Assembly: GCA_022484565.1 (NCBI GenBank)
Contig: JAKVKZ010000011.1
Span: forward strand, 1 to 61,249
Direction of reading: 5' to 3'
DNA: 61,249 nt
Origin: Muribaculaceae bacterium
GTDB lineage: Bacteria; Bacteroidota; Bacteroidia; Bacteroidales; Muribaculaceae
Shown here in pieces: positions 1,580-16,629 of this stretch. Below the pieces are notes generated by a model. It worked only from the letters and a program-made list of their open reading frames with translations, did no database searches and was not told the DNA's origin. Made by a program: the position numbers and the translations under genes. The first letter of the stretch is position 1, and each line of letters begins with the position of its first letter.

Positions 1580-3994
1580 ATGAAACGTCACTTTATCATT
1601 CTATTAATGGCAATGCTTCTCACATCGCTGACAAGCGCGGGAACGTCATTAAAGATATTCCATTACCAAGCTAAAGATGCCAATGGGCGTCTGAATTACC
1701 GCTCATTCAATGCAGCGAACATCAAAAAAATTGATTTTTCAACCATCGACGTGCAGAAGATAGTGCTTAACGACGGCACTGAGGCGACAGCACCGATGAG
1801 TGAGCTTGACAGCCTTGTGTGCATACATGAAAGCGGAAATATGTGGAACGGCAGCTTAGGATTGACCGACACGGACTGGAAATCAGGACTTGTGACAGGC
1901 ACAAACGAAGCCGTGTGGGACATGATGAGCAATTACGACGTGCTCGCATTCGACTACTCGCTCACAGGCAGCACGCACCAATTCCAGGGACTTATCCAAA
2001 ACTCGGCAAACACTTCCGATGCCAACAATCTGCTGAGCGACATGAAGCACTATTCGGGCAGCAACGCCTACATTGAAGGACTTGAAAGTTCATGCCACTA
2101 TGTGAAACTCAACCCAGAGGATTTAACCAACATGAAGACTTACGGAGTGCTTTTCAACGGCATAGGATTGACATTGACATCAATACACAAGGCATCGAAC
2201 GTGATTTGGAGCGGTGCCGACAAGACTCTCGGCGAAGGTGACGCATGGAGCACAAATGCGACAAAAGTGAACATGATAATCGGTTCATCCACAGCCGACC
2301 CGCTAAATCTGCGCAATCTGCAGGTTGGCGACAAAATCACATTTCACTTCTACTCCACTTCGGGCGCGGAATTCCAGCTAATCAAGGATTCACAAAAGGA
2401 CCTTTTTTCGTTCATGACGAGCGACTATTACAGCGTGGGCGGGTCAACGAGCTTCACAACAGGTAAAGTAACCCAAGCCGACATCGACTACATCACCTCA
2501 AACGGCTACATTATGGACGGGCACAACCTTGTGCTTGACTTCATCACCGTCACACATGCCACACCATCAGTAGCCCTCGCGGCACTCGATCCATCGAAAG
2601 TGGCAACATCGCTTATCGACCCCAACGCCACTCAAGAGGCGGTGAATGTGTATAATTTCCTGAAATCCACCTATGGCAAAAAAACACTGTCGGGCATAAT
2701 GTCGCATTATTGCCTCGACACCAACGAGATGGCATATTGGGTTTACAACCGTACTAAGGCGCTCAGCGGCACCGGCTACTCGCCTGCTTTCGTCGGCTAC
2801 GACTTCATCGACGGCACCAACGGCAAGAGCGCTCCCGAGGAGCAATGGAACAATGGCGGACTTGTGGGCTTCAATTGGCACATCCGTGCCGGCGGCAGCG
2901 GTTTCTACTCAGCTGCCAACACCGTAGGTTGCTCTCCAACGACGGATTTCGATATCCGCAAGGCAGTGACCGAAGGTACAAGTGAATATAATGAGATTAT
3001 TGCCGACATCGACAATGTATCGGCTTATTTGAAGACGCTTCAGGACGAGAACATTCCAGTGCTTTGGCGACCTCTGCACGAGGCTGCAGGCGACTACAAC
3101 AACGCTTGGTTCTGGTGGGGACGTTACGGAGTGGAATACACTAAGCAGCTCTATTACATAATGTACAACCGCATGGTGAACTACCATGGCCTGCACAATC
3201 TGATTTGGGTTTGGACCATGCAGACGCCAACGGCACAGGGCAACGGCACGATTCAGGACATGAAGGATGCATACGTGGGCGATGACTATTGCGACATCGT
3301 CGGAGCTGACATATATCAGGACAAGACTTCACGCATCGACGATTTCAATGAAATCCGCCAAGCCATAGGCGACAAGAAAATCATCGCGCTTAGCGAATGT
3401 GGCAATATTCCTGAACCGAGTGCCTGCTACACCGATGGCGCGCCATGGTCGTATTTCATGGAATGGTGCCTCTACGGCATCGACACGCAGAACAGCACTG
3501 CCGACGGATTCGGCAATTCCGACACTGATTGGCTACGCATCATGACGGACAGCCACGTAATAACCCGCGACGCCATGCCGAATCTAAAGGTTACTACCAC
3601 TGAAAGTGCTACAGAATTGTGGAACTCCACCACTGCTGGCGTTACCGTGGGCAGCACAAGTGGTTGGGGCAGCAGCGATGTAACGATTCCTGCAAGTTAC
3701 TTTTCCACAGTTGCCACAGGCGGCAAGTTGCAGTTCATCATCAGCGGCAACAGCGGCCAATTCTCATTCAAGAAAGTAGGCAGCACTGATGGTGCAGACC
3801 TCGCATTCGATTGTTGGAACAAGACCAATACATCCGACGGAAAGACCTACGTGTATTCCAACGTGTCGAGCGGAACTACAATCATCCAGACCACCGCCCT
3901 CACAGCTGCCGATGTCACCGAACTTCAGGCGAACGGCTGCAAACTCAACGGCAACAACAATGTCGTCACTTCCATCCGCTATGTAGCGCCATAA
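1580..3994 (+). CDS. Secreted GH26 beta-mannanase with flanking carbohydrate-binding-like modules
   Basis: An 804-residue protein. It has a signal peptide at residues 1-20 and a conserved N-terminal segment containing FNAANIKKIDF. Two carbohydrate-binding-like modules follow at about 85-205 and 206-328. The GH26 catalytic barrel spans about 345-665, and one more module lies at 675-804. The family signatures are clear: WRPLHE places the acid/base glutamate at 501, the aromatic run WFWWGRYG follows, and IIALSECG places the nucleophile at Glu606. GH26 enzymes mostly cleave beta-1,4-mannan. The C-terminal module is absent from the sister enzyme at 14632, so modules have been shuffled. No SusC/SusD pair is present in the window. 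Expression is probably driven by the direct-repeat promoter upstream. Confidence 0.93.
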   Translation: MKRHFIILLMAMLLTSLTSAGTSLKIFHYQAKDANGRLNYRSFNAANIKKIDFSTIDVQKIVLNDGTEATAPMSELDSLVCIHESGNMWNGSLGLTDTDWKSGLVTGTNEAVWDMMSNYDVLAFDYSLTGSTHQFQGLIQNSANTSDANNLLSDMKHYSGSNAYIEGLESSCHYVKLNPEDLTNMKTYGVLFNGIGLTLTSIHKASNVIWSGADKTLGEGDAWSTNATKVNMIIGSSTADPLNLRNLQVGDKITFHFYSTSGAEFQLIKDSQKDLFSFMTSDYYSVGGSTSFTTGKVTQADIDYITSNGYIMDGHNLVLDFITVTHATPSVALAALDPSKVATSLIDPNATQEAVNVYNFLKSTYGKKTLSGIMSHYCLDTNEMAYWVYNRTKALSGTGYSPAFVGYDFIDGTNGKSAPEEQWNNGGLVGFNWHIRAGGSGFYSAANTVGCSPTTDFDIRKAVTEGTSEYNEIIADIDNVSAYLKTLQDENIPVLWRPLHEAAGDYNNAWFWWGRYGVEYTKQLYYIMYNRMVNYHGLHNLIWVWTMQTPTAQGNGTIQDMKDAYVGDDYCDIVGADIYQDKTSRIDDFNEIRQAIGDKKIIALSECGNIPEPSACYTDGAPWSYFMEWCLYGIDTQNSTADGFGNSDTDWLRIMTDSHVITRDAMPNLKVTTTESATELWNSTTAGVTVGSTSGWGSSDVTIPASYFSTVATGGKLQFIISGNSGQFSFKKVGSTDGADLAFDCWNKTNTSDGKTYVYSNVSSGTTIIQTTALTAADVTELQANGCKLNGNNNVVTSIRYVAP

Positions 3995-4018
3995 AATTCA
4001 ATCTAATATATTCAATCG

Positions 4019-4057
4019 AGCCGCCAAAGATTCAAATGAAATTTGGCGGCTTTTTTT
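4019..4057 (+). terminator. Rho-independent terminator after GH26
   Basis: A perfect 10-bp stem (AGCCGCCAAA / TTTGGCGGCT) with a 13-base loop, followed by a run of T. It marks the right end of the GC-richer mannan genes before the AT-rich island. Confidence 0.88.
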
Positions 4058-4087
4058 AGCATTTATTCCGATAGAGTACACTATCAA

Positions 4088-4576
4088 TTAAAAGTCAGGC
4101 CAAGTATCATTTATAGTTTCACACTTCCACTCCCTCTCCTCTTGCGCCTCTTTATCCTTTAGATAAATAGCCTCTTTATCCTCATCTTTAAGAAGTTTAT
4201 AAAATTCTGCTGGGACATCAGTAAAAATAGCGAGTTTAGTCGACCATAATTTCACAATACTATATCCATCGCTTAGTTCATAATGAAGGAGAGCTATCAG
4301 ATAGCATAATTGATTGTTAGCAGTACGTCTACCAGAATTACCAAAAGCACAAACTGTAGCAGTGGGATCCGCAAACCTTTTTCTATGAATACGTGAAAAA
4401 GCAGATTCCATGTGCCCAAGCGCTTCGCGAATTAATGACTCATTTGACCCGGCTCTCTCTAAAATTTCTTGGGCAATCAATAATTCTTTCCTTGCTTGAC
4501 CAAAGAATATTAAAAACTGATCCCTAACGCGGGGCAGAGCCTTGACAACTGTATTAATTGAAGAAGAAGATACCAT
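4088..4576 (-). CDS. Hypothetical helical protein, divergent from the island
   Basis: A 162-residue protein that I do not recognise. It has no signal peptide and no membrane segment. The first half looks alpha-helical (KALPRVRDQFLIFFGQARKELLIAQEILERAG), and the last 35 residues are rich in Glu, Asp and Lys. It reads away from the metallopeptidase-like genes and shares a 280-bp AT-rich intergenic region with them. Its base composition resembles the island rather than the mannanase genes, so it probably belongs to the island. An antitoxin or accessory role is possible, but nothing in the sequence shows it. Confidence 0.6.
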   Translation of the reverse strand: MVSSSSINTVVKALPRVRDQFLIFFGQARKELLIAQEILERAGSNESLIREALGHMESAFSRIHRKRFADPTATVCAFGNSGRRTANNQLCYLIALLHYELSDGYSIVKLWSTKLAIFTDVPAEFYKLLKDEDKEAIYLKDKEAQEEREWKCETINDTWPDF

Positions 4577-4685
4577 AGCAAAATAATTAAATTAATCAAT
4601 TCTATAATGACCTACTAAAATCATCTATAACAATGAATGTGAAACTAAACACATCTATCACAAAAAGCAAATAAAATTCAGCTCC

Positions 4686-4739
4686 TTACTAAAATAAATT
4701 AGTAATAATTTTATTTGCATTATTAATTTAGTATTTTTG
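4686..4739 (+). promoter_or_regulatory. Candidate promoter with inverted-repeat operator at the island's left end
   Basis: TTACTAA (4686-4692) and TTAGTAA (4699-4705) form a perfect 7-6-7 inverted repeat. A Bacteroidetes -7 box, TATTTTTG, lies at 4732-4739. The first long gene starts 117 bp downstream. The palindrome sits roughly where an operator or activator site would lie. No T run follows, so it is not a terminator. Confidence 0.5.
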
Positions 4740-4856
4740 CTGAAGTAAATATCAACAATCGATTTCGACTATTTACAATTATATTTAACGATTTCTGAAA
4801 GGTCTTAATCTATTGTCCACACATTGGTAATCGTAATATTATAAAAAAATAGTGAC

Positions 4857-5525
4857 ATGAGTGACTCTATATTTGACAACCCAATTTTTCAGGCATTCAA
4901 CCATGTTTCCATGGACGATTTTCTAAAGCTAAGCCAGCGCTACAGCAAATTCGGGTTAACCCCTGACGAAATAAGGGATGCAGTGAAATCAGCATGTGAT
5001 TTTTTCAATATACCAATGCCCAGACTTATTCAGGACTTGACCAATACGCCAGGAGGACAAACAATGTTTGTCAATTGGGACCGTGGAAGCTACGAAGATG
5101 ATGTGATATGCTTCAATATGCAACAGCTAATCGACATGAAAGTTGACAGCAAAGATGCTTTTTCTTTAGTAATCACCCACGAATGTGGGCATAGGGTATT
5201 GCAGAACACTCAGTTTCCTGGAGTAAACAATGGCGCATGGGAATCGGAACTATGTCCTGATTTTTTCATGGGATGCCGCGCAGGGTTATGGAATATGGAT
5301 ATATCCAACGTTACGTTAGGATTGATACTAACCAGCGGAAGTCAAAGTCATCCAGTAGGCACACTACGCGCACTGTTCATCCGTAAAGGATATTATCGTG
5401 CACCTGAAATGTATCATCAAGGAATTCCATTAACAATACAGAATCTTGTGAATGAATTCATGCTTTTCAGTGAACAGAATCTAAATGAAATACTGGACCA
5501 AGAGCATAAATTCTATAATTTCTAA
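4857..5525 (+). CDS. Zinc-metallopeptidase-like protein (zincin, HECGH)
   Basis: A 222-residue protein without a signal peptide, so it is probably cytoplasmic. It carries the zincin motif HECGH at 108-112 within VITHECGHRV. Downstream is ELCPD at 131-135, which can supply the third zinc ligand (Glu131) and an Asp. SHPVGTLR at 164-171 resembles the His-Pro...Arg motif of M48-like peptidases. The next gene has the same three motifs in the same order, so the two are paralogues. Family assignment beyond gluzincin-like is uncertain. It opens the main strand of the island and is followed after 28 bp by its paralogue. Confidence 0.75.
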   Translation: MSDSIFDNPIFQAFNHVSMDDFLKLSQRYSKFGLTPDEIRDAVKSACDFFNIPMPRLIQDLTNTPGGQTMFVNWDRGSYEDDVICFNMQQLIDMKVDSKDAFSLVITHECGHRVLQNTQFPGVNNGAWESELCPDFFMGCRAGLWNMDISNVTLGLILTSGSQSHPVGTLRALFIRKGYYRAPEMYHQGIPLTIQNLVNEFMLFSEQNLNEILDQEHKFYNF

Positions 5526-5553
5526 GAAAATTATACATAAAAGTTCGAAGTCA

Positions 5554-6300
5554 ATGAATCCTTACGAGATAATAAGCCAATATGACAAATTTCGGCGTCG
5601 GCACAAAGCAAATATTTTCGATTCAATTTTTTCAGACACTGAAGTCCTACAAGCAAAAGACATATCAGAAATACTTCAAAATGTCGTGAATTTCTTTACT
5701 CTGCCTGTACCACAAGTAAAAGAGACCGATAGGACATTAGCAGAAATAGTAACCCATGAACATGCAGAAGACAGCGAACTTTATTATAATCTTAGAATGT
5801 TGGTAGATAATGGAATCAACAATAAAGATGCACTGACTCTATGCTTAGTGCATGAAATGAGTCATCAAATTCTCCACCAAACCACATTCATGCTATTCCA
5901 AAATGAGCTATGGATTCAAGAACTGGCGGCTGACCTATTATGTGGAACTTATGCTGACCGTTACGATATTGCCACAGGAAAATACAAATTCACACTATCC
6001 AGACTAAAGGCATCGCCAACACATCCGCCAGGCAAAATAAGAGAGGAAATCGTTGAATATGGTAGGAATTTAAAAAATTCTTTTCTATCTTTGCACAAGC
6101 AGTTCAACGTTGATGACACTTTATTAGCTCTACCTGCTTTCGTATATTGTCATATGAAAGATCTGTCAATGTGTTGGAAAGAAATAGCAGCAATGGATTG
6201 GAATACATTCATTACAAATAAACCTATAGAACAAACCATCAACATTGACGATTTGCCAGGCAGTAATCTTCTAAAACAATACAAGCTGAAACACAAATAA
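5554..6300 (+). CDS. Second zinc-metallopeptidase-like protein (HEMSH)
   Basis: A 248-residue protein from the ATG at 5554. An in-frame start at 5485 would overlap the previous gene and add a basic tail with no match in the paralogue. HEMSH at 100-104 is followed by ELAAD at 123-127 and THPPGKIR at 156-163, exactly parallel to the previous protein. All putative zinc ligands are kept, so both copies look catalytically competent. About 85 extra C-terminal residues (FVYCHMKDLSMCWKEIAAMDW...) have no counterpart in the first copy. No signal peptide. It is in an apparent operon with both neighbours. Confidence 0.74.
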   Translation: MNPYEIISQYDKFRRRHKANIFDSIFSDTEVLQAKDISEILQNVVNFFTLPVPQVKETDRTLAEIVTHEHAEDSELYYNLRMLVDNGINNKDALTLCLVHEMSHQILHQTTFMLFQNELWIQELAADLLCGTYADRYDIATGKYKFTLSRLKASPTHPPGKIREEIVEYGRNLKNSFLSLHKQFNVDDTLLALPAFVYCHMKDLSMCWKEIAAMDWNTFITNKPIEQTINIDDLPGSNLLKQYKLKHK

Positions 6301-6319
6301 CAAAAACTATATAAAGACA

Positions 6320-7618
6320 ATGAAAATTATTAACAATAACATGCTAAAGAATCCTCCAGTAGGAAAATTCATCAGTGAAGACAAAGCTATAAATGGTTTG
6401 GAAACCAACCATTTATATCTTCTTGCACCAGTAGAATCAGAAATCTCAATTGAAGCCCAAAAAGCAATTAAAATACTGCTCGACCAAACAAATAAGGAAT
6501 CATTTATAAACAAATATGATTTTTCAGTGTTTGCCGATAAGTTATGCCTTGAGAACCAACCCACAATGAAATCCGAACTGGAATCGGGAAATTTCAATTT
6601 AATTCTACCTTTGCTAAAGATAAACAGGACTAATGAACTATATCTCATAGCAAAAGCTCAAAAGGAAGATTTGATGATGACCATTCCTTTGATGTTCAAT
6701 ACGGCTGAACAAGTAACACGTGAAAATCTGGTAGAGATTATAAAACGTTATGCGAAAGAAGACACTGAAGATTTTTTAGCTCTATTAAAACAAGTATTCT
6801 CGATTAAGGATATTACAAAGAATTTATCATTAAATAGCCTATTCACATCCATTCCATCATTCGGCATGGTTACAGGACCGTTAATTTCATTCATGAATAT
6901 GGGTAAAATTTACGAACGGCTATCCGAAATCGTACGTTTATACATAAAAGGCGACAAGAACGCCAAAATGGAAATTCATGCTATAACCAAGAATATTGAC
7001 CCTCGCATACTTATTGAAATATTTAAAAGAATGCCACCATCAATGGTAAATAAATACTGCAAATATCTTAATCCAAACTTCTTAGCAAAGTCATCTACTC
7101 TTAAATTTGAAATCCGAGACCACTCAGAATCCTATAATAAAAAAACCGCCAAAGAAAAAAGGTTGAAAAATGATGGCAAATTCGTATTATACCTTACTAA
7201 AAATAACCAAGAAGAATTTATTCATTTTGGCCATAAGGAATCATTCATTCTTTACCTCATTTACCTTATTGACCGTTATGAGAAAGGTACTGAAGTGGAT
7301 ACGCTGAAAATTCCCAAAATGAAAAAGGACTTTTGCAATTTATTTAACATTGTATATCCTGGTTCAGGAATTGACGGTGCATCCAGATTCGATAGAATGG
7401 TAAAGCCTTATATTTCACAAGGCAAGACGCAAAAGCCCAAAATCAGTAGTTACTACTCTGAAATCCGCAAAAAGGTTTATGAAGCATGTGATAATATGAA
7501 TGAAGTCCCCGTGCCTTTTGTTATATCCGATCCCACAAGCCATATTTACACACTTCAGAGCAACATTATCATAGATCCTTCCCTGCTTAAAGAAGTTCAA
7601 AAGACAACGAATAGTTAA
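6320..7618 (+). CDS. Large hypothetical protein of the island
   Basis: A 432-residue protein of unknown family. The N-terminal 190 residues are acidic and mixed. A hydrophobic stretch around 170-195 (LFTSIPSFGMVTGPLISFM) is too weak to call a membrane helix with confidence. A basic segment around 270-285 (SYNKKTAKEKRLKND) leads into a C-terminal region with strand-helix character (GKFVLYLTKNNQEEFIHFG, then a helix ending DRYEKG). That region ends in a compact part around PGSGIDGASRFDRMVKPY that could be a winged-helix-like domain; this is a guess from pattern. It follows the second peptidase-like gene by 19 bp, so it is probably co-transcribed. Confidence 0.65.
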   Translation: MKIINNNMLKNPPVGKFISEDKAINGLETNHLYLLAPVESEISIEAQKAIKILLDQTNKESFINKYDFSVFADKLCLENQPTMKSELESGNFNLILPLLKINRTNELYLIAKAQKEDLMMTIPLMFNTAEQVTRENLVEIIKRYAKEDTEDFLALLKQVFSIKDITKNLSLNSLFTSIPSFGMVTGPLISFMNMGKIYERLSEIVRLYIKGDKNAKMEIHAITKNIDPRILIEIFKRMPPSMVNKYCKYLNPNFLAKSSTLKFEIRDHSESYNKKTAKEKRLKNDGKFVLYLTKNNQEEFIHFGHKESFILYLIYLIDRYEKGTEVDTLKIPKMKKDFCNLFNIVYPGSGIDGASRFDRMVKPYISQGKTQKPKISSYYSEIRKKVYEACDNMNEVPVPFVISDPTSHIYTLQSNIIIDPSLLKEVQKTTNS

Positions 7619-7649
7619 CCAAAGTTAAACACAAATAGACGCTGATTCA

Positions 7650-7674
7650 TAACGTATTTATTTATAATACGTTA
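7650..7674. repeat. Perfect 9-bp inverted repeat between two island gene blocks
   Basis: TAACGTATT (7650-7658) and AATACGTTA (7666-7674) are separated by seven bases. The site lies in the 188-bp gap between the peptidase-like block and the sigma-like gene. There is no run of T afterwards, so an operator is more likely than an intrinsic terminator. It differs in sequence from the palindrome at 4686. Confidence 0.55.
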
Positions 7675-7806
7675 TAGCTAATTTTATACCCTTGATAAAA
7701 TAACCGTACCAAAGAGGGGTGATTCCGTCGTGAAGTTCCGATTTTTGCATCATAAAGACAATGCAAAAGTTGATACTTCATTAATAATTCTAAATACGAC
7801 GGAGAT

Positions 7807-9039
7807 ATGGAAAGCAGCAGCAAAACAAACCTGAAAGCTCAGCAGATTATTTCATCAGCTGACAGAACAATGTACACGCTTACCCGTGAACAACTAATTC
7901 AATTCATAACAACATTCTGCAACATAACACTTTCTGAAATTACTAATACGAACAAAAAGGTATCAGAATTGTTATCAGAACTTGTTGGCGAAACATTTTC
8001 AAGAATTGAAAATAATAATGGATTAATCTTCCATGATGACCATGAAGCCCTAAAGTATATTTACAATGAAACTCATTGCTTTATCTGGTATATTGCCATA
8101 AAGGAAGAGGCAAATTATATCATTCAGCGACTAACTTCAAATGACATAATTTTTGCAAAACATTTCTTTTATGATGACAATCCGAAAGGTTGTAACATTT
8201 CACGTCTAAGGTCAAAGATACTCAGTCAAATATGGCTGATTTATCATATAAAGCTATCAAAACAAGAATTTAACACCGTAATATATACACTTATATGGGC
8301 AGACGGCACTTGGTCGGCACTAAAATCATATAGATATGAGAGCAGTATTTTCGCATGGATGCTAAATGTCGCAAAAAATGGGATAATCTTATATCTGAAA
8401 CAGATGGGTATGATAAAGGAAGCCCCAAAGCGTACAATTGCAAACACAAGGACCAAATTATTATCAAAAAATGCACTCACATGTGAATTTGTGATTGAAA
8501 TGGTGGTACAAAACGCTGATATGCGCAAAATTCTTATAGACATATATGTTAAGCGAATAGATGATAGCACAATTATGTCACGGCTGGGCATGAATGAGGA
8601 GCAATACAACAAAATCAAAGACAAAGCCATAGCTATTTTAAAAAGCGGAATTATCCGGTCGCCATATAACTTTGAAGATATGCTTGGCGATAAGGAGCAC
8701 AAAGTAGTGACCGTGACGACTGAATATGCAACGCAATTTGCGGAATGGTGCGAATACAAAGCTGAAGAGAATCCGCTTATTGATATTTTTGGCACTAATT
8801 TAAGTGATGAAGAAATAGCTGAAAAGGTTGACGAACTGCTTCACTCCATGTACGAGAAAATGGATTGGAACGAATCGGAACGATATCTGTGGCGCAAACG
8901 CTATTTCGAGGATGCCTCCCCTAATGATTTAGCAGAAGAATTAGGCATTCGCCGCTCGAACGTGGATGTGCGTTACTCTCGCCTTAAGGCCAAATTCTAT
9001 TCTGCACTGCGTGAATGGTGGAAAGAAAATTCAAAATAA
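7807..9039 (+). CDS. Divergent sigma-70-like protein with two region-4-like domains
   Basis: A 410-residue protein. Residues about 155-200 resemble sigma region 2 (TWSALKSYRYESSIFAWMLNVAKNGIILYL, compare the W...A.N helix of ECF factors). Two segments then resemble region 4: about 232-285 (DMRKILIDIYVKRIDDSTIMSRLGMNEEQ...) and, more clearly, 350-408 (WNESERYLWRKRYFEDASPNDLAEELGIRRSNVDVRYSRLKAK is the span). The helix-turn-helix of the second is plain. ECF factors are usually near 190 residues, so this is about twice as long with an added N-terminal 150. It may direct transcription of the island. It precedes the AAA+ gene by 17 bp. Confidence 0.62.
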   Translation: MESSSKTNLKAQQIISSADRTMYTLTREQLIQFITTFCNITLSEITNTNKKVSELLSELVGETFSRIENNNGLIFHDDHEALKYIYNETHCFIWYIAIKEEANYIIQRLTSNDIIFAKHFFYDDNPKGCNISRLRSKILSQIWLIYHIKLSKQEFNTVIYTLIWADGTWSALKSYRYESSIFAWMLNVAKNGIILYLKQMGMIKEAPKRTIANTRTKLLSKNALTCEFVIEMVVQNADMRKILIDIYVKRIDDSTIMSRLGMNEEQYNKIKDKAIAILKSGIIRSPYNFEDMLGDKEHKVVTVTTEYATQFAEWCEYKAEENPLIDIFGTNLSDEEIAEKVDELLHSMYEKMDWNESERYLWRKRYFEDASPNDLAEELGIRRSNVDVRYSRLKAKFYSALREWWKENSK

Positions 9040-9056
9040 CTTAATCCTATAACAAT

Positions 9057-10946
9057 ATGATACTCAATATTAATAAACCGTTCAACAAATGTGAGATTGA
9101 ACATATTGTTGACACAGGCAACTGCAATTATCGTGAAGTGTACATAATCCACGATAAATCAGAGAAACAAATGTTTCTGACCGTATATTCCATAGATGAA
9201 ATGCCTGAAAGCATGAATCATGATGACATTAAAGAATTCACGCTTTGTGAAAGTCTTGCCAATGGCGTATTCCCTAAATTCATTTCCAAAGGGCAAATGA
9301 AATACGACAAGAAGGCCATAAAGTGGATGACTACTGAATATCAAGAAATGATGCCGTTAAGGACATTGGTAAATATAAAACCGCTTTCTGTGGAGACTTC
9401 CTTAAACATCATATTTGATATTCTCGTCGGGCTGAAAGAGATAAAACACAATTCACCAAAATCAGGGCACTTCAACATTTGTCCGGACACGATATTTGTC
9501 ACCAAAGAAAACAATGGAAACATAAAGACTCATCTTAGAGGCCTTCAATTTGTTGACGATGATACAAACAACAATATTGGGATAGACACAAAGCTCATTA
9601 ATAACTGTTTTCGCGCTCCTGAAACATTTCCGGGATTATTTTATGAACCCTCCATGGTGTATTCTCTCGCCATGCTGCTTGCTTATATGGCCCAAGGATT
9701 TTACCCTCTTAAAATAGATGAGAGCATGAATTCGTTTTCATGTTATAGCATAAAGAAAAGAGGAGACTTGAATTTGACTTTGCCTAAAGCGCTAAAAGCA
9801 ATAGTAGTTAAAGCAATGAAACGCAAGATTTCCGAGCGCTACCAGACAATAGAATTATTCGGTCAGGCATTAGCGAAACAGATGAGAAACAAGCATAAAG
9901 ATGTGTTCAGCTGCTTCTCTAATGAAACAAACGATAAAAATTCCACTCATAAAGGCAATTCAAAAAAAGATGTCGCCAAGAAAAGTCCGACAAAGGAAGA
10001 GACGGATTCAGAAGAGGGGATGAAAGAGATATCGAAACAGAGCCATGACTTTCAAGTAAATGTGCCAATCCAATCAATTAAGGGTGTCGGATTCGGGGCT
10101 GTTGCAGGAATGACGAGCCTTAAGCAACGCCTAATTCGCGACTTTGTTGATGTGGTCAACAACCATGAACTAGCAAGTGAATTCAATATATCGGCACCCA
10201 ACATTCTGTTCTACGGGCCTCCCGGAACAGGTAAGACTTACATATCAATGCGATTGGCCGAGGAGTGCGGTCTCGAAACAAGCTACGTCAAGCCATCAGA
10301 CCTCGGCAGCATCTACATACATGGTTCACAAGCGATGATTCGGGAACTGTTTGACAATGCTGAAACGCAAGCAAAGGAAAACGGGAAAGGTGTTCTTATC
10401 ATATTTGATGAATTTGACGCATTCTGTCCAGTACGTACTTCAGAGGACCGAAACAATCAATCAGGAGAAGTGGCAGAGTTCTTAACGCAGCTAAACAACA
10501 GCAATGAACGCAACATATTTGTTATAGGTACCACTAATTGTCTTGACCGCATCGACAAAGCTATAATCCGCAAAGGAAGAATGGACGAGGTGATTTATAT
10601 AGGATTGCCTGACGTGACGGCACGCAAAGAAATGTTTGAACTCGAACTTACAAAACGCCCACACGAGGAAAGCATTGATTTATCACATCTGGCAGAATTG
10701 ACAGATAAATATTCTTCATCCGACATTTCTTTCATAATTCAGGAAACTGCACGCCAATCGTTTGCCAAGAGCTTATGCAATGCAAATAAGGAACTGGTTA
10801 AAATAAGCCAGGCAATGGTTGAAAGCGTAATTAGTCAAACTCGCCCATCCGTTTCGCCTCAGGAGATGCGCAAATATGAGCAAATCCGTGATGAATACGC
10901 ACAATGCGGAACGAGTCAACAACGGCATGTGGGATTTATCGCATAA
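9057..10946 (+). CDS. Pseudokinase-AAA+ ATPase fusion
   Basis: A 629-residue protein. The first 280 residues read as a degenerate protein kinase. A glycine-loop remnant lies near 18-31, HFNICPDTIFV at 138-148 stands in the place of HRDxKPxN, RGLQFV at 161-166 stands in the place of DFG, and FRAPE at 185-189 keeps the APE motif. The ATP-binding lysine and the catalytic aspartates are missing, so kinase activity is unlikely. A charged linker (about 290-330) leads to an AAA+ domain of the FtsH/Cdc48 type. That domain has Walker A GPPGTGKT at 387-394, Walker B IIFDEFDA near 448-455, sensor-1 GTTN at 491-494, RKGRMD at 505-510 and SSSDIS at 553-558, all intact. It is likely a hexameric ATP-driven remodeller whose pseudokinase part binds a partner. 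Confidence 0.82.
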   Translation: MILNINKPFNKCEIEHIVDTGNCNYREVYIIHDKSEKQMFLTVYSIDEMPESMNHDDIKEFTLCESLANGVFPKFISKGQMKYDKKAIKWMTTEYQEMMPLRTLVNIKPLSVETSLNIIFDILVGLKEIKHNSPKSGHFNICPDTIFVTKENNGNIKTHLRGLQFVDDDTNNNIGIDTKLINNCFRAPETFPGLFYEPSMVYSLAMLLAYMAQGFYPLKIDESMNSFSCYSIKKRGDLNLTLPKALKAIVVKAMKRKISERYQTIELFGQALAKQMRNKHKDVFSCFSNETNDKNSTHKGNSKKDVAKKSPTKEETDSEEGMKEISKQSHDFQVNVPIQSIKGVGFGAVAGMTSLKQRLIRDFVDVVNNHELASEFNISAPNILFYGPPGTGKTYISMRLAEECGLETSYVKPSDLGSIYIHGSQAMIRELFDNAETQAKENGKGVLIIFDEFDAFCPVRTSEDRNNQSGEVAEFLTQLNNSNERNIFVIGTTNCLDRIDKAIIRKGRMDEVIYIGLPDVTARKEMFELELTKRPHEESIDLSHLAELTDKYSSSDISFIIQETARQSFAKSLCNANKELVKISQAMVESVISQTRPSVSPQEMRKYEQIRDEYAQCGTSQQRHVGFIA

Positions 10947-11007
10947 TTATGATAGAAGATCTATTATATCCTATTCTTTAATGTATAACAATTAAAATTT
11001 TATTATT

Positions 11008-11436
11008 ATGAACAAGACAGAAGTTATAGAACATTTCAGCGAACTCGGCTTCACATTGGAGGAGATTCCTGATTACGCTTACATTTTCCACTATGAAGAT
11101 TTGAACATGCTTTATATGCCAGATGATGAGGATAACGATTTCTTTAGAATCGCACTTCCAAACATCTATGACGTCACTGAAGAAAATCGCGCATTTTTGC
11201 TTGATGTAGCCAACGAAACGAACTTAATGATTAAGTCAGCAAAAATCTGCCTCACGCATGATGATGTATGGGCAATGTATGAATGCCCCATTTTCAGTGA
11301 AGACAAAATTGAGAATATGATTCAATACGCTGCGGAACTGCTTCAGGCAGCATCTGCACTATTTATCCGAAACCTTAATGGTGAAGGCTTTGGAAACGAA
11401 GAGGATAACAATGATGAAAAGCAAAATGACAAATAA
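11008..11436 (+). CDS. Small acidic YbjN/type III chaperone-like protein, copy 1
   Basis: A 142-residue acidic protein, with an Asp/Glu/Asn-rich tail (EEDNNDEKQNDK). An alpha/beta pattern runs through it: a helix at 1-14, then strands around DLNMLYMPDD and FFRIALPNIYDV, then a helix with ...FLLDVANETNLMIKSAKICL, another strand (WAMYECPIF) and a C-terminal helix. This layout matches the YbjN/type III secretion chaperone-like fold; the assignment is by pattern only. The next gene repeats LPN..., an N-L-x-M-K motif and a Y-E strand at equivalent places, so the two are paralogues. It lies 61 bp after the AAA+ gene. Confidence 0.62.
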   Translation: MNKTEVIEHFSELGFTLEEIPDYAYIFHYEDLNMLYMPDDEDNDFFRIALPNIYDVTEENRAFLLDVANETNLMIKSAKICLTHDDVWAMYECPIFSEDKIENMIQYAAELLQAASALFIRNLNGEGFGNEEDNNDEKQNDK

Positions 11437-11449
11437 TTAATTTTTGATT

Positions 11450-11842
11450 ATGGGATCAACAATTTTCTCAAGGATAAACACCATCTTGACCAATAATAAA
11501 TACAAGATTGTAGAGACAGACGAAAGTAGCATCATCATACGCTTTCAACTTAATACAATGCATATTTATCCCAGTGACCAAGATGATAATTTTGTCAGTG
11601 TCTTATTGCCTAACTTCGCTCCAATAGATAGCGAAAGCGATAAAGGAGCATTTCTTGAGCGATGTCAGCGTCTCAATCTCGAAATGAAAGTCGTAAAGAT
11701 ATATTCTTTGCGTGATATTATTGTAGCCTCATATGAATTCTATTTTCAGAATGATGATGACTTGGAGTTTAATATAAAACAGTCATTTAAATCACTTATA
11801 TCAGCCAAAGTCGCTTACAACAAACTGGAACAAACTGATTAA
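11450..11842 (+). CDS. Small acidic YbjN-like protein, copy 2
   Basis: A 130-residue protein from the ATG at 11450; a TTG two codons earlier is less likely. It shares with the previous protein the strand ending in a Leu-Pro-Asn turn (FVSVLLPNFAPI), the NLEMKVVKIYSL segment and the YEFYF strand. The pair are diverged tandem paralogues. A binding or chaperone role for the AAA+ protein or a secreted partner is inference. No signal peptide or membrane segment. The neighbouring genes are 13 and 11 bp away. Confidence 0.6.
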   Translation: MGSTIFSRINTILTNNKYKIVETDESSIIIRFQLNTMHIYPSDQDDNFVSVLLPNFAPIDSESDKGAFLERCQRLNLEMKVVKIYSLRDIIVASYEFYFQNDDDLEFNIKQSFKSLISAKVAYNKLEQTD

Positions 11843-11853
11843 ACATATCCAAC

Positions 11854-12438
11854 ATGAAACTATTCAAAAAAAAGAATTTGGAGTGGTGGGCAAAAAACCA
11901 CCCTCCAACAAATTCATTTGCAGCAAGTGTGGAAAAAGTATTAAACGACAATTGGTTTGCATACCATTATGATAGCACAAGTGATAGCTTTTTTCTCACA
12001 CTTAAGCGTGTAATTCAGGATTCTCTTGTGTACAACATAATTATTAATTGCAGACATTACACCATTAAGACTTACACCGGGCTTCCGATAGTGTATCAAA
12101 AAGACCATAAGCACCTCAATGAAGTATTGCAACAAATCAGCAAAGAATCGGAACTGATTAATCTGGAAATAGATGACATGACAAAATTAATTACAACTTC
12201 GCTCAATATTTATAATATTCAGGAATTCAATTTCATTATTCCGATATTAATCGAACAAGCGACCATAATTGACTGCCATCATGAACAAATCAACAAAGCA
12301 TACGAATCACCTAAAAATTGTTATATCCGGACAATAAGTGACTATCATGATTTTATGATATTTGACAAATTGATAATCAACAGGATAATAAAAATCGACG
12401 GAGAATATGCCATTGCTCATTTAATCAACAAAAAATAA
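11854..12438 (+). CDS. Hypothetical island protein
   Basis: A 194-residue, Asn/Ile-rich protein that I do not recognise. It starts with a basic tip (MKLFKKKNLEWWAKNHPP). It then has an alpha/beta region (SFFLTLKRVI, LVYNIIINCRHYTIKTYTGLP) that loosely resembles the YbjN-like neighbours but is longer. There are no cysteine clusters and no signal peptide. The stop codon overlaps the next start by one base (TAATG), so translation of the two is probably coupled. Codon use is strongly AT-rich. Confidence 0.55.
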   Translation: MKLFKKKNLEWWAKNHPPTNSFAASVEKVLNDNWFAYHYDSTSDSFFLTLKRVIQDSLVYNIIINCRHYTIKTYTGLPIVYQKDHKHLNEVLQQISKESELINLEIDDMTKLITTSLNIYNIQEFNFIIPILIEQATIIDCHHEQINKAYESPKNCYIRTISDYHDFMIFDKLIINRIIKIDGEYAIAHLINKK

Positions 12439-12896
12439 TGAAACCCGATAATAAAATATTATTGAAATTATGCAGCGACTGCAAAACAACAGTTCACAAA
12501 AACATGAACAATTTCATTGCCTTTGCACAAAATATTTTAATGAATAAAACTTTTATCACTTCAGCGTATTCATTGCTCCCTTTTGATAAATCCATAAACA
12601 CAAGCATCGATCTCAACAATAATAAATCTCTTGTAAAAAATCTTGGTATAACTCTAATGCGTATGGATATTGAACCTGACTTGTTTTCATTTGGGCTGTC
12701 AATAACAATTAGTGGCAGTAAATACAGCATTGGCGAAAATGCTACAATATTGATTAGCGCAGGTGTTTCATTCGACAAGATTTGTGAGAGCATTAATTCA
12801 ACGGAATTTGTAAATTATGCCTATACTCTTTTCTCTCAGCAAATTGACGATTGTTTTTCAACAATTCAGCTAAAGGAATTAATTAATATCACATGA
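12438..12896 (+). CDS. Hypothetical island protein, possible paralogue of the next gene
   Basis: A 152-residue protein whose function is not recognised. A central beta-rich part (DLFSFGLSITISGSKYSI, ATILISAGVSF) is followed by a helix DKICESINSTEFVNYAYTL. The protein at 13023 has a comparable arrangement (YSLIIGVNFELS..., then DKLIEAMKSNEFHEKW). The shared D-K-(I/L)...S-x-E-F pattern suggests distant paralogy. Its start overlaps the previous stop. A 126-bp gap follows, in which I see no clear promoter. Confidence 0.52.
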   Translation: MKPDNKILLKLCSDCKTTVHKNMNNFIAFAQNILMNKTFITSAYSLLPFDKSINTSIDLNNNKSLVKNLGITLMRMDIEPDLFSFGLSITISGSKYSIGENATILISAGVSFDKICESINSTEFVNYAYTLFSQQIDDCFSTIQLKELINIT

Positions 12897-13022
12897 ACAA
12901 CCTAAGTGAAGAAAAGTACATCAAAATTATTTAATATTATAAGTTTCAAAACTCCACGCTTTTATGATAGAAATTCCGTCGCCATCATCTCTTTATTAGT
13001 GTAACATTTATAAAATAGCAAT

Positions 13023-13505
13023 ATGGAAAAGGACAACAAACAAGAAGATTTCGTATTTTCAGAAGCTGCTATATCAGCCTCCTTTTTTGCTTTTGAAAAC
13101 CGTGAATTTGTAGAAGGACATTTCAACAAACTGACAGTAGAAATGGTGAAATGCGCAAACGATGAAAAGTTCATTACGAACTTACGTGAGCTAAAAAAGA
13201 GACAAAGAATAACACGTGGCATAACATTCCAACCAGAGGATTTTTGCTTTGTCAATAAAATATGGTTCTCGATTCACAAATCCACATCCAATTATTACGA
13301 CACCTATTCACTAATTATAGGAGTAAATTTCGAACTTAGCGCAATGTGCCCATTCGCGAAAATACAAGGTAGAGTTTATTATGGCTTTATAGATAAGTTG
13401 ATTGAAGCCATGAAATCCAATGAATTTCATGAGAAATGGCAAAAGTTATTAATGGAAAATGTATATGACAATCTTTTCAATGGCTATAATGAAATTTTCA
13501 AATAA
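13023..13505 (+). CDS. Hypothetical island protein
   Basis: A 160-residue protein with no signal peptide and no recognised domain. The first 70 residues are charged and probably helical (NLRELKKRQRITRG). The middle is beta-rich (FCFVNKIWFSIHKS, YSLIIGVNFEL). The end is helical and holds the S-N-E-F motif noted in the previous gene. The 126-bp gap upstream could contain a weak promoter, but no TAnnTTTG box is evident there, so read-through is equally likely. Confidence 0.52.
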   Translation: MEKDNKQEDFVFSEAAISASFFAFENREFVEGHFNKLTVEMVKCANDEKFITNLRELKKRQRITRGITFQPEDFCFVNKIWFSIHKSTSNYYDTYSLIIGVNFELSAMCPFAKIQGRVYYGFIDKLIEAMKSNEFHEKWQKLLMENVYDNLFNGYNEIFK

Positions 13506-13542
13506 AAATTCAAACTACACTTAAATTAATTTACAAAATAAT

Positions 13543-13917
13543 ATGGGAAAGCAAAAAATCAAAATAGAATATACGTCGGAGACAATAGCAGAAAGGACTT
13601 ACGGAGACGGCGACGATTGTGATACAGTTTTTATTGAAGTTCAATCTGCTTTCGGAAAGCCCGTTAAACTCTGCATCGGATATAATCGTTGCAGTAAAGA
13701 CCTTGAAGAATACTATGGCGATTGCGACTTAGAAGATTATATTCACGTCGAAGGAGATGATCTTAGAAAATTGGCGTCTAAATTTTCTGCTTTGAATACA
13801 AAGACATTGGTAGAACGTATCGTGATTAGATTCGAGCCATATGGATTAGGGGCATATAAAGCTTTTGAGGAGTTTCTTAAGAAAAAAGGCATACACTACT
13901 CCACAAGTTTTTATTAA
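13543..13917 (+). CDS. Small hypothetical protein closing the island
   Basis: A 124-residue acidic protein. It opens with a beta strand (KIKIEYTSETIAER). A cluster of Gly and Asp (YGDGDDCDTVF) and four further cysteines lie in the first two thirds, without a zinc-finger spacing. A helix near the end (GAYKAFEEFLKKKG) completes a likely small alpha/beta fold. It is 37 bp after the previous gene and is the last island gene before the promoter of the second mannanase locus. Function unknown; an immunity-like role is possible but unsupported. Confidence 0.52.
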   Translation: MGKQKIKIEYTSETIAERTYGDGDDCDTVFIEVQSAFGKPVKLCIGYNRCSKDLEEYYGDCDLEDYIHVEGDDLRKLASKFSALNTKTLVERIVIRFEPYGLGAYKAFEEFLKKKGIHYSTSFY

Positions 13918-14015
13918 CTGCCAAATTCACAATTTAGCATCATAGCACTATTTCAATCCTAATATTTATTCACCATCACAAAACAAAACGACCTCATTTT
14001 TCCTTTTTTTCGCAG

Positions 14016-14075
14016 AAAAGTATCACATATAGATAAGAAAGTATTATTTTATTTGGAAATTCGTGTCTAATTTTG
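14016..14075 (+). promoter_or_regulatory. Direct-repeat operator and -7 promoter box upstream of the sorting-domain/GH26 pair
   Basis: AGTATC at 14019-14024 and AGTATT at 14040-14045 are 21 bp apart, and TAATTTTG lies at 14068-14075. Measured from the first repeat, every element falls at the same position as in the sites at 1416 and 16767. The distance to the start codon at 14195 leaves a leader of about 110 bases. Confidence 0.68.
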
Positions 14076-14194
14076 TCACGTTGAAAATAGCCTATTCGGG
14101 CAGGAAGTGATATCCCGAAAATCTGAAACCAAATTGTCCTGCTGAGATAGGCGCTTATTACATACCGCAAACATAGACCATAAATAAATAATAC

Positions 14195-14635
14195 ATGCAT
14201 AAATCATTACTTTTATTATCATTGCTGCTTGCATCGCAATTTGCAGGCGCAGAAGGCTATAAGACAATCTCCGTCATAACCAAGAACGGCAACACCACCG
14301 CTGTGGATATTGCCGAGCAGACTCAAATCAAGTTTTCGGGCACTCAAATCACTTTCGGCGACAAGACTTTCAACCGCGCCGATGTGGTGAAATTCTCCTA
14401 TGTTAAAGGTAGCGGCACGGTAGCAATAAAGACCGGTGCTGAACGTCCTTTCCGTCAAGTGGGCAATTCGCTGATTTTCAGTACCGATGCAAATGCTGCC
14501 ATTTTTGCCGTTGACGGCCGCAAGGTAATCAGCGACAAGGTGGAGGCTGGATCATCAATCAGCATAGCTTCGCTGGCAACTGGAGTGTATATTATAAAGG
14601 TAAACAATGAAACTTTTAAAATAGCCAAAAGATGA
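14195..14635 (+). CDS. Small secreted protein with T9SS-type C-terminal sorting domain, copy 1
   Basis: A 146-residue protein with a signal peptide (MHKSLLLLSLLLASQFAGA). A short N-terminal domain (YKTISVITKNGNTTAVDIAEQ...) is followed by about 75 residues of the type IX secretion sorting-domain pattern. The end, IFAVDGRKVI...LATGVYIIKVN..., is characteristic. Such domains normally sit at the end of large cargo proteins, so a protein that is little more than the domain is unusual. Its stop overlaps the start of the GH26 gene (ATGA), which implies coupled translation. The pair is duplicated downstream as 16993-19106. Confidence 0.75.
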   Translation: MHKSLLLLSLLLASQFAGAEGYKTISVITKNGNTTAVDIAEQTQIKFSGTQITFGDKTFNRADVVKFSYVKGSGTVAIKTGAERPFRQVGNSLIFSTDANAAIFAVDGRKVISDKVEAGSSISIASLATGVYIIKVNNETFKIAKR

Positions 14636-16629
14636 AAAAGTATATATCAGCCATTGCAGCTCTTTTACTGCTGGCATCCGCAGTTACGGCAAACGTAACA
14701 TACATAACACGTAGCGACAACGCTTTCAACGCTTTTGTTGAGGACAGCGTGAAGTGCATCCAGTTCACCGACGGCTCAGCAGCCGATGGCTACAACACAC
14801 AGCAAATAGTGAACAACGATGGCACAGTCAGCAATATCGACATGAGCAAGATTGAAGAATTGGTGCTCAGCGACAACGCGACAATTTGGAAAGGCAGCGT
14901 GAATTTCGGCAACTGGCTCGCCAACGGCTATCTGCAAATCCCCGCAGGTGACCCGTTGATGTCAACATTGAAGGCAGGCGACGTGCTTACCTTCAACTTC
15001 ACAGAGGATTCCTCCGCATCGTGGTGGCAGTTCAAGTTCACTGATTCCAACGGCAGCGACAATGTGATGGCCTGCGTAAGCTCAAACGTCAATACTTACA
15101 ACTGCGTTGACATGAGCAAAGGTGCAACCACATTCAGCATCAAGCCGACGGCAGCCGACATCACTTATCTGAAAGCTAACGGAATGTTCATCAAGGGCTG
15201 CAATCTCACTCTCACATCTATTGAGCACGCAGCCGCCCAAACGGAGACAACAGTGTGGAGCGGCAGCACAGACCTCGGCACAGCATGGTCGTCGATGTTG
15301 ACGATTCCAGCAAGCAGCCTGCAGGACGTGGTAAGCGGAACCAAAATGACTGTGAATTTCACCGAAAACTCATCATGCACATATTGGCAACTCCAGCCGC
15401 TTTACAACGACAACTCTTGGACGACGCTCAGCAGCGTATCCTCCCTCGTCAACCAATACAATTGCATTGACATGTCGCAAAATGCCACAAGCTACACCTT
15501 CACCATCAATGAATCCGATGCCACAAGCCTCAAAACCTACGGAATGATTTTCAAAGGCTACGGACTTACGCTCACATCAGTGGTGATTTCCGGAGGTAGC
15601 GGAACAGGTGGAGGCGGAACTGGAGGCGGCGGAACTGGCGGCGACACCACAACAACCAAATCCGACCTTTGCGACGCAAAAGCCACACAGCAGGCCGTGA
15701 ATGTCTATAACTATCTCAAATCAGTGTATGGCAGCAAGGAACTTTCAGGCGTAATGGCAAACGTTGACAACAACAACACCATGAGCAATTGGGTATATGC
15801 CAAGACCGGCAAGCACCCTGCTCTCACTTGCTACGATTTCATCAACATCGGTTACAGCTGGGCCAATTACACAATTTCCTACGCTCAGGACCAATGGAAC
15901 AACAACGGTCTCGTGGCATTCATGTGGCACTGGCGTCCAGGCAGTGAAGACGGCTTCTACACTCCAAGCGGTGGCTCACCTTCCACTGAATTCGATGTTC
16001 GTCAAGCCGTGACTAAAGGCACCAGCCAGTACAACACCATCATCAGCGACATCGACAAGATTGCCGTCGTCCTGAAGAATCTCCAATCGGCCAACATCCC
16101 CGTAATCTGGCGTCCACTGCACGAGGCTGCAGGAAATTCATCGGGCAGCAACAACAACGCATGGTTCTGGTGGGGACGTTACGGCGCAAGCTACACAAAG
16201 CAGCTTTACGACATAATGTACGACCGCCTCGTCAATTATCACGGCATCCACAATCTCATCTGGGTGTGGACATTCAACGACAGCGACACTGGCACAATGA
16301 CCAATTGGTATCCCGGCAACGACAAGGTTGACATAGTAGGCACCGACCTCTACCCTACAGGAACGGATTCGCAAAAATCAGTTTTTGATAAAATCAACAC
16401 TGTCACCGGCGGCAAGAAAATCATCGCCCTCGCCGAGTGCGGCAGAATTCCCGACCCCGACAAGTGCTTCTCATCAGGCGACAAATGGTCGTGGTTCATG
16501 GAATGGTACAAATACGGAATCACAACAAGCGACTCGAGTGACGGATTCGCAAACACTGCCGACTATTGGTCACAGATAATGAACAACAGCCACATTGTGA
16601 CCCGCGAAGCCATGAAAAGCTTAAAGTAA
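14632..16629 (+). CDS. Secreted GH26 beta-mannanase with two N-terminal modules and Gly linker
   Basis: A 665-residue protein. A signal peptide (1-20) precedes the conserved N-terminal segment. Two carbohydrate-binding-like modules follow at about 84-200 and 207-320, then a Gly/Thr-rich linker at 321-343 and a GH26 domain to the C-terminus. WRPLHE puts the acid/base residue at Glu498, and IIALAECG puts the nucleophile at Glu602. The WFWWGRYG and NLIWVWT motifs match the first enzyme. It lacks the C-terminal module of that enzyme, and its catalytic domain ends at the protein end. It overlaps the sorting-domain gene by four bases. Confidence 0.93.
   Translation: MKKYISAIAALLLLASAVTANVTYITRSDNAFNAFVEDSVKCIQFTDGSAADGYNTQQIVNNDGTVSNIDMSKIEELVLSDNATIWKGSVNFGNWLANGYLQIPAGDPLMSTLKAGDVLTFNFTEDSSASWWQFKFTDSNGSDNVMACVSSNVNTYNCVDMSKGATTFSIKPTAADITYLKANGMFIKGCNLTLTSIEHAAAQTETTVWSGSTDLGTAWSSMLTIPASSLQDVVSGTKMTVNFTENSSCTYWQLQPLYNDNSWTTLSSVSSLVNQYNCIDMSQNATSYTFTINESDATSLKTYGMIFKGYGLTLTSVVISGGSGTGGGGTGGGGTGGDTTTTKSDLCDAKATQQAVNVYNYLKSVYGSKELSGVMANVDNNNTMSNWVYAKTGKHPALTCYDFINIGYSWANYTISYAQDQWNNNGLVAFMWHWRPGSEDGFYTPSGGSPSTEFDVRQAVTKGTSQYNTIISDIDKIAVVLKNLQSANIPVIWRPLHEAAGNSSGSNNNAWFWWGRYGASYTKQLYDIMYDRLVNYHGIHNLIWVWTFNDSDTGTMTNWYPGNDKVDIVGTDLYPTGTDSQKSVFDKINTVTGGKKIIALAECGRIPDPDKCFSSGDKWSWFMEWYKYGITTSDSSDGFANTADYWSQIMNNSHIVTREAMKSLK

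Follow-up and report, generated by a model that had tools for sequence, protein, structure and literature searches.

A recurring Bacteroidales gene set with a pseudokinase-AAA+ protein, paired zinc peptidases and a sigma-70 family factor: a candidate signalling or defence system

We examined an island of genes at positions 4088-13917 of a 61,249-nt stretch of DNA (the window, by which we mean this whole stretch) from a Muribaculaceae bacterium (GCA_022484565.1, contig JAKVKZ010000011.1), whose genome measures 2.95 Mb in 93 contigs and is 82.5% complete. The island comprises 11 plus-strand open reading frames (ORFs), B to L (4857-13917), and one divergent ORF at its left end, A (4088-4576). The distances between consecutive genes from B to L were -41, 19, 188, 17, 61, 7, 11, -1, 126 and 37 bp, 8 out of the 10 being 61 bp or less, so that the close spacing claimed in a preliminary description of this DNA was found as stated. 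Seven genes, B to H, form the core of the set. Two of them are called gluzincins here, which we take to be the name for HExxH proteins with a Glu 18 residues further on.

4857..5525, plus strand: B, gluzincin 1, 222 aa, HECGH-x18-E
5485..6300, plus strand: C, gluzincin 2, 271 aa, a distinct paralogue, HEMSH-x18-E
6320..7618, plus strand: D, 432 aa, predicted thioredoxin-like N-terminal domain and OmpR-type winged-helix C-terminal domain (low confidence; AF2 and VIA)
7807..9039, plus strand: E, sigma-70 family factor with an N-terminal extension (TIGR02937, VIA)
9057..10946, plus strand: F, pseudokinase (~1-300) and Cdc48/p97-like AAA+ domain (~340-615) with a C-terminal VGF tail (PF00004, kinase homology)
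11008..11436, plus strand: G (also T1), acidic YbjN/TY-chaperone-like protein, grouped with other T1 proteins (support 92)
11444..11842, plus strand: H (also T2), second YbjN-like protein, T2 subfamily (PF22551 at 0.0018, below cut-off)

Relatives were collected by scanning GTDB contigs with the C-terminal AAA part of F, and the best 80 loci of the 263 relatives were used (L-numbers denote the loci compared and G-numbers genomes; L031 and L147 of G206 are copies of one contig, as are L099 and L140 of G331). All 7 core genes were present in L115 in the order of the window (B-C-D-E-F-T1-T2). L031/L147 contained C-D-E-F-T1 up to the contig end, and D-E-F-T1-T2 were found both in L116, with T1 as an overlapping ORF, and in L108 (Lentimicrobiaceae). 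Shorter runs were C-D-F on a 4.2-kb contig (L111) and B-F-T in L099/L140, where the zincin abuts F. G487, from another family, had D-E-(second AAA)-F-type-T1 in a row on one contig and B-C-second D-PP2C-T1-T2-WG on another. The second AAA gene between E and F in G487 (L187 11151-12776) encodes an IetA-like ATPase domain. The preliminary description had read the island as one candidate system and had named the joint presence of at least four of its genes in unrelated Bacteroidetes as support; this was found in L115 (7 genes), in L031/L147, L116 and L108 (5 each) and in G487, and the recurrent gene order speaks for one system.

Since the 80 loci were chosen by F, their neighbours are not an unbiased sample, and single-protein and whole-genome searches for E, D and the zincins served as the independent test. 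Whole-genome searches of 295 Bacteroidales genomes per query (E-value cut-offs 1e-25 for E, 1e-5 for D and 1e-8 for the zincin) detected E and D in 2 genomes, the same ones for both, and zincins in 3 genomes. F was carried by all three genomes (G000, which is that of the window, G487 and G331), and E, D and F were clustered in G000 and G487. G487 was absent from the search profiles; the window, and G331 for the zincins, had been built into them. Single-protein searches over 198 genomes of the window's own family recovered E in 4 (strong in G000 and G203, 1.2e-11 in G206 and a short match of 9.4e-5 in G021), D in 2 and B in 4, with E, D and B together in G206. Recurrence of the gene set across families in Bacteroidales is well supported, and it looks like a real system.

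Both proteins that had been described as metallopeptidase-like, B and C, do contain HExxH. Each of the 9 zincins from kinase-AAA loci that were examined (B, C, 5 others in the alignment and 2 of L188) had the full HExxHx18E motif, and the motif spacing differed from it in the 3 zincins of L034-L036. Neither protein had a transmembrane-like hydrophobic stretch (top 19-residue hydropathy of B, 0.89), and the true start of C may lie downstream of the annotated one. The zincin profile gave nothing significant against PDB sequences (best ERAP1, E 0.36). Identity of B to its counterparts was 79% in L115, 69% in L140 and 39% in L188, the last of which speaks against uniform conservation of B; C was 33-36% identical to its counterparts in L147, L115 and L111, and 29% in L188. 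Between the window and L115, the six core neighbours of B were only 21-36% identical as against the 79% of B, and B has perhaps been transferred between loci.

E had been called a divergent sigma-like protein, which understated it. It scored 47.4 bits against the curated sigma model TIGR02937 (cut-off 42.9), and 6 out of the 7 E family members matched this model at 1e-3; E-profile matches of 189-206 aa (L034, L035, L184) were counted as generic sigma factors. A second helix-turn-helix-like stretch lies at ~226-276, ahead of the region-4-like part (phrog_248, 5.7e-8 at 226-275). With the AF2 model of E (pLDDT 68), VIA returned rows titled sigma factors or sigma-RNA polymerase complexes (best Z 9.7, whole-chain rmsd high), and the C-terminal region alone fitted sigma region 4 domains at 1.8-2.9 A. 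By sequence model and predicted fold, E is a member of the sigma-70 family. The best VIA match of the AF2 model of D (pLDDT 62) placed residues 261-410 on the DNA-binding domain of AdeR (Z 5.7, 89 residues at 3.1 A), and residues 22-134 matched thioredoxins weakly (Z ~5); Foldseek found no match of this model in the PDB at E 0.001 or better.

The AAA domain of F matched PF00004 (2.1e-28), and Cdc48/p97 and relatives were at the top of the 60 best PDB matches shown. Kinase homology of the N-terminal domain was detected by PF00069 in 18 out of 20 aligned family members, not in the window F itself at 1e-3, and the MAD6 kinase model matched the window F at 3.5e-12. None of the three catalytic residues (Lys, HxD Asp and DFG Asp) is kept in the window F. 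Its Pfam matches included no peptidase family, and its top 19-residue hydropathy was 1.22.

The F family was found in three contexts: with a YbjN-like partner, with DnaJ-like and Hsp70 proteins and often TerB, and in the window type with zincin and sigma genes. A YbjN-like gene lay at most two genes downstream of F in 51 out of the 80 loci, Hsp70 in 8 and neither in 21, and the DnaJ-like/Hsp70/F/TerB context was also seen in other fetched loci. In the AAA-domain tree (88 rows), the Hsp70-linked rows formed one group (support 97), including L101 without an Hsp70 match, and the window-type rows formed one clade (support 97) of 13 rows that included L119, L123 and L156. Tree and motif counts leave out identical copies and rows shorter than 480 aa (the AAA-only G487 and L104, and the split L112), and one F-profile match (L178 17379-19394) that did not show the family motifs was dropped beforehand. 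Finer placements are unsure, because several long branches meet in this quick tree, including that of the window with that of L107.

Retention of the kinase residues differed between these groups. All three were kept in 53 of the 61 rows outside the Hsp70 and window clades (40 of the 43 such rows with a YbjN-like gene in the locus), and in 0 of the 14 Hsp70-linked rows. The window clade, in which the sigma-linked loci of the tree lie, kept none of the three in any of its 13 rows, and complete loss was seen elsewhere in 2 of the 75 other rows (L100 and L102). The Walker B DE and a C-terminal tail [VIM]G[FY] within six residues of the end were present in 88 of the 88 rows. An AAA protein without the kinase domain was found in G487 and L104. 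The earlier claim of an ATP-driven remodeller with a dead kinase accordingly stands for the AAA domain and for the window clade, not for the outside rows, most of which are intact. The kinase domain may have decayed from an apparently active ancestor. The kinase-AAA fusion family is apparently undescribed.

Several members of the family had neighbours of their own. The window's genome contains an F paralogue with intact kinase motifs and one YbjN-like gene (L013 1306-6555, contig C30), about 1.8 kb downstream of a DNA methylase gene (PF01555) and near ORFs that are restriction-like by inspection. To judge from the translations, an F-YbjN pair in G017 (L014 4856-12002) has a Cas1-like ORF and a stretch rich in repeats in its vicinity. 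On the Haliscomenobacter plasmid pHALHY02 (L191 6383-15674) Hsp70, kinase-AAA and TerB genes are directly beside the BREX genes brxL and pglZ. Radical-SAM genes and small ORFs, possibly a maturase and a peptide precursor, are located upstream of F in L114 (1278-3183) and L099 (2863-4583).

G and H are acidic (isoelectric points 4.1 and 4.9, respectively) and belong to the same family. Among its 15 members, TY-Chap1 was matched by 2 (best 9.3e-9) and YbjN by 5 (best 1.1e-4), with no such match for G itself; the curated Pfam scores were 18.4 bits for H, against a cut-off of 27, and 12.3 bits for G. The family profile gave nothing significant against PDB sequences (best E 0.1). T2 formed a clade of 10 rows (support 99), every one from a tandem locus, and T1 and T2 are a derived pair found in the window-type group of loci alone. 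Of the small acidic paralogous proteins announced for the island, G and H were recovered as such, and paralogy was supported for these two only.

The remaining genes of the island are accessory or probably lie outside the core:

4088..4576, minus strand: A, 162 aa, probably non-core; among 41 genomes searched, matched in its own genome only
11854..12438, plus strand: I, 194 aa, accessory; among the ORFs compared, matched in the window only
12438..12896, plus strand: J, 152 aa, accessory; one relative, L032 9782-10213
13023..13505, plus strand: K, 160 aa, accessory; possible distant paralogue of J (weak; hhalign)
13543..13917, plus strand: L, 124 aa, accessory; one relative, L176 15925-16266 (33% over 63 aa)

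No homologues of A, I or K were found in the sets searched, and A had no match in Pfam, NCBIfam or PADLOC. In Pfam, nothing reached the cut-off for I to L; I and J had weak matches below it (E 0.04 and 0.028, respectively). The hhalign comparison of A, I, J, K and L with each other and with small families of L032, L108, L114 and L115 revealed no convincing link; J and K aligned with E 0.016 over 128 columns at a probability of just 1.3%, and the other 44 pairs had E of at least 0.11. The relative of J in L032 adjoins a homologue of E (10393-11394), and that of L in L176 belongs to another kinase-AAA locus, where it is surrounded by WG, Sir2 and PP2C genes.

Relatives of the island add genes for Sel1-AAA, DUF1232, WG-repeat, vWA, FtsZ_C-like, Sir2, PP2C, RtcB and dynamin-like GTPase proteins. 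We compared 13 window-type loci (the window, L031, L107, L108, L111, L112, L114, L115, L116, L136, L141, L187 and L188) with 71 others, which include the copies L147 and L140 and the pseudokinase-clade loci L119, L123 and L156. In raw counts from contigs of differing length, window-type loci and others had WG in 6 and 3, Sir2 in 4 and 1, PP2C in 3 and 1, DUF1232 in 4 and 3, and FtsZ_C-like genes in 3 and 0, respectively; the contrast was smaller for vWA (3 and 6), Sel1-AAA (3 and 5) and dynamin (1 and 1). Both vWA and PP2C genes were present in the L114 and L115 loci.

The island had a G+C content of 0.356, as compared with 0.473 for the remainder of the window, and the lowest value of any 9,830-bp stretch past position 14000 was 0.453 (250-bp steps); larger unrelated ORFs with higher G+C content flank it. 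The sharp drop that had been described is real, and the local counts quoted for it (14 and 38 G+C in 60) were exact. AT-richness was rejected as a trait of the system, given that a drop of more than 0.1 was seen in just 2 of the 11 relatives measured (L188 and L107), and the L115 locus showed none (0.453 against 0.456). An origin from a mobile element was rejected as well: zincin B matched nothing in 50,697 phage or 72,556 plasmid records and the zincin profile nothing in IMG/VR in the searches used, and no repeats longer than 16 bp or inverted repeats were found in 3500-14700. One 16-bp direct repeat with 1 mismatch, possibly due to chance, lies at 6311-6326 (start of D) and 7752-7767 (upstream of E). 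In promoter and terminator scans, shuffled sequence scored at least as high.

We compared the island proteins with the models of Pfam, NCBIfam, PADLOC and PHROGs (NCBIfam and PADLOC without J and L, PHROGs without H and L). In the scans that covered them, none of B, C, D and I to L exceeded a curated cut-off or reached an informative E-value. No model in the four libraries covers the whole gene set, PADLOC gave no whole-system match, and no description of the set was found in the open-licence papers searched. The earlier statement that no described system has this set of genes is in line with these searches, in which no known operon type was matched.

Partial likenesses were found. In PADLOC, F was similar to IetA (3.1e-26, mainly the AAA part) and to PD-T4-6, and the GTPases of the relatives resemble LeoBC. 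IetAS places an AAA ATPase beside a peptidase, as the island does. IetS is a serine protease, whereas the island peptidases are zincins and sigma, D and YbjN-like genes are added; no IetS row appeared when 10 of the 12 island proteins (all except J and L) were compared, the presence of an IetS model in the library not having been checked. Sigma-32 is controlled by FtsH with DnaK and DnaJ. The FtsH_fam model matched the AAA part of F, and the island shares with that circuit a classical AAA motor, a zinc metallopeptidase and a possible sigma client; moreover, the sister clade of the F AAA domain is encoded with Hsp70 and DnaJ-like proteins, comparable to its DnaK-DnaJ. FtsH differs in that peptidase and AAA form one membrane-anchored chain, whereas F has neither a peptidase domain nor a transmembrane-like segment, and the island has separate gluzincins, a pseudokinase in F and YbjN-like proteins in place of DnaK and DnaJ.

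Among conflict systems, the VMAP, FtsH-ternary and GTPase-centred systems of Kaur et al. 2020 (PMC7159879) depend on nucleoside triphosphates (NTPs) and have MoxR and vWA parts. There, the common theme is an NTPase chaperone with peptidases, vWA, PP2C, Hsp70, decayed kinases and variable accessory genes; compared with these systems, the island has a Cdc48-like AAA domain with a pseudokinase, a dedicated sigma factor and a YbjN-like pair, and Pfam gave no match to vWA or AAA_3 (MoxR) models in A to L. The TerY-P triad (PMC11090510) consists of vWA, PP2C and a kinase. L114 and L115 recall it with vWA and PP2C genes near a kinase-fold protein, but in the island, which has no Pfam match to PP2C and so lacks the complete triad, the kinase domain has lost its catalytic residues and is joined to the AAA domain. 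The TY-Chap/YbjN chaperones of ADP-ribose-linked systems (PMC9503650) are likewise small YbjN-type proteins beside conflict-type genes; the core genes in that account differ, and the T1/T2 pair is tied to an AAA motor.

We tentatively favour the reading that the island encodes an intracellular ATP-driven signalling system of Bacteroidales, in which an AAA+/metallopeptidase machine gates the dedicated sigma factor E. F would form a Cdc48-like AAA+ ring, with the dead kinase domain and the acidic T1 and T2 as presumptive client receptor and adaptors. The ring would unfold or release a client that restrains E, most likely D, the likely partner of E, or E itself, and B and C would cleave the exposed client segments. 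Freed E could then transcribe this gene set together with accessory or effector genes. The scheme is modelled on FtsH with DnaK/DnaJ and sigma-32, except that separate chains supply the motor and the peptidase; the contacts between the proteins, the way the regulation runs and the signal that triggers it are all inferred. It modifies the mechanism sketched in the preliminary description. The gene order, the sigma identity of E, the zinc motifs and the pairing of zincins with sigma genes in an AAA-free set are reasons for preferring such a switch. The rarity of E, D and the zincins and the clustering of E and D with F, the complete kinase decay in the window clade, the confinement of T2 to tandem loci and the Hsp70-linked sister clade also count in its favour. 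A more doubtful extension is that this is a new AAA+ regulatory machine, in which a decayed-kinase client receptor, a YbjN heterodimer and a split gluzincin pair switch a private sigma factor, at the hub of a modular Bacteroidales super-operon with GTPases, Sir2, vWA, PP2C and WG-repeat sensors.

Several observations weigh against the switch. The fold of D is weakly assigned, and an anti-sigma domain was not found. Conservation of B departs from that of the rest of the set: F was just 34% (L115) and 37% (L140) identical where B was 79% and 69%. The genomes of L107, L111 and L114, which are metagenome-assembled and possibly incomplete, have the pseudokinase-AAA gene and no E at 1e-15, in L136 a few genes separate E from F and the contig lacks D, and the F-type protein of G487 without a kinase domain implies that this domain is dispensable. 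Homologues that occur singly, which the preliminary description had listed as evidence against a system, were seen in part: L032 (G203) has E and J with F, D and zincin not nearby, a D paralogue in the window's genome (L033) lies near a DUF1232 gene without E or F, and the zincins of L034-L036 (G065 and G076) are part of a different set, which has ECF-like sigma genes and no F. From such partial and separate occurrences we conclude that the unit is modular, with F-T1-T2 and E-D-zincin halves that are often but not always joined. The other set (L034 9219-14508, L035 9183-14725 and L036 8151-15326) comprises a small ECF-like sigma factor, a small protein, a zincin from the family of B and C and unnamed proteins, with an additional protein with eight WG-repeat matches in L036; this AAA-free set also provides an independent hint of zincin-sigma cooperation.

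The close rival to the switch is an inducible system against phages or mobile elements, in which the AAA protein and its adaptors set a threshold, the sigma factor amplifies and the zincins, or the Sir2, GTPase or RtcB proteins of relatives, are the effectors. We consider it rather unlikely as it stands, yet its scattered occurrence (2 of 295 genomes for E and D) and the variable conflict-type accessory genes (Sir2, PP2C, vWA and dynamin-like GTPases) keep it close, as do the resemblances of F to IetA and PD-T4-6 and of the relatives' GTPases to LeoBC, and the sister loci beside BREX genes or a DNA methylase gene (L013). However, those defence-gene neighbours were seen in single loci without a control count, the window has no obvious cell-killing effector, PADLOC returned no whole system, and the phage, plasmid and IMG/VR searches for the zincins were empty. 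Less probable is a role in stress or protein quality: F with T1/T2 would work as a chaperone machine in its own right, and sigma, D and the zincins would make up a separate regulator that happens to share the locus. F with a YbjN-like gene, seen in 51 of the 80 loci, does occur nearly always without E, D or zincin, and E with J, or zincin with sigma, exist without F; but E, D and the zincins are rare, F is close by wherever E and D co-occur, and T2 together with full kinase decay marks the group of loci to which those with E and D belong.

Peptide processing, with cleavage by the zincins and F and T proteins as chaperones of a small variable peptide, seems improbable. Its model would be the module of a zincin-like peptidase and a radical-SAM protein in VMAP/FtsH-ternary systems, as given in PMC7159879, and radical-SAM genes do lie upstream of F in L114 and L099/L140; yet the library scans gave no radical-SAM match among the island proteins, no precursor was recognisable, and the L114 locus has a radical-SAM gene and no zincin. 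Finally, the low G+C content and the lack of homologues for A, I and K in the sets searched could point to a chance neighbourhood of unrelated, horizontally acquired AT-rich genes. This is contradicted by the conserved gene order, identical over seven genes in L115 in spite of 21-36% identity for 6 of the 7 products, and relatives mostly lack the drop in G+C content; we hold chance to be extremely improbable.

The gene set is apparently undescribed and looks like a signalling or defence system. Thematically it resembles the NTP-dependent conflict systems in Kaur et al. 2020 (PMC7159879), with MoxR and vWA not found in the island. Its central protein belongs to a kinase-AAA family with three separable contexts, in which retention of the catalytic residues differs by tree group; since natural intact, decayed and kinase-less versions exist, the role of a pseudokinase on an unfoldase is directly testable. 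With this set, AAA-centred signalling or defence in bacteria would gain a private sigma factor, with sigma-dependent transcription as the read-out.

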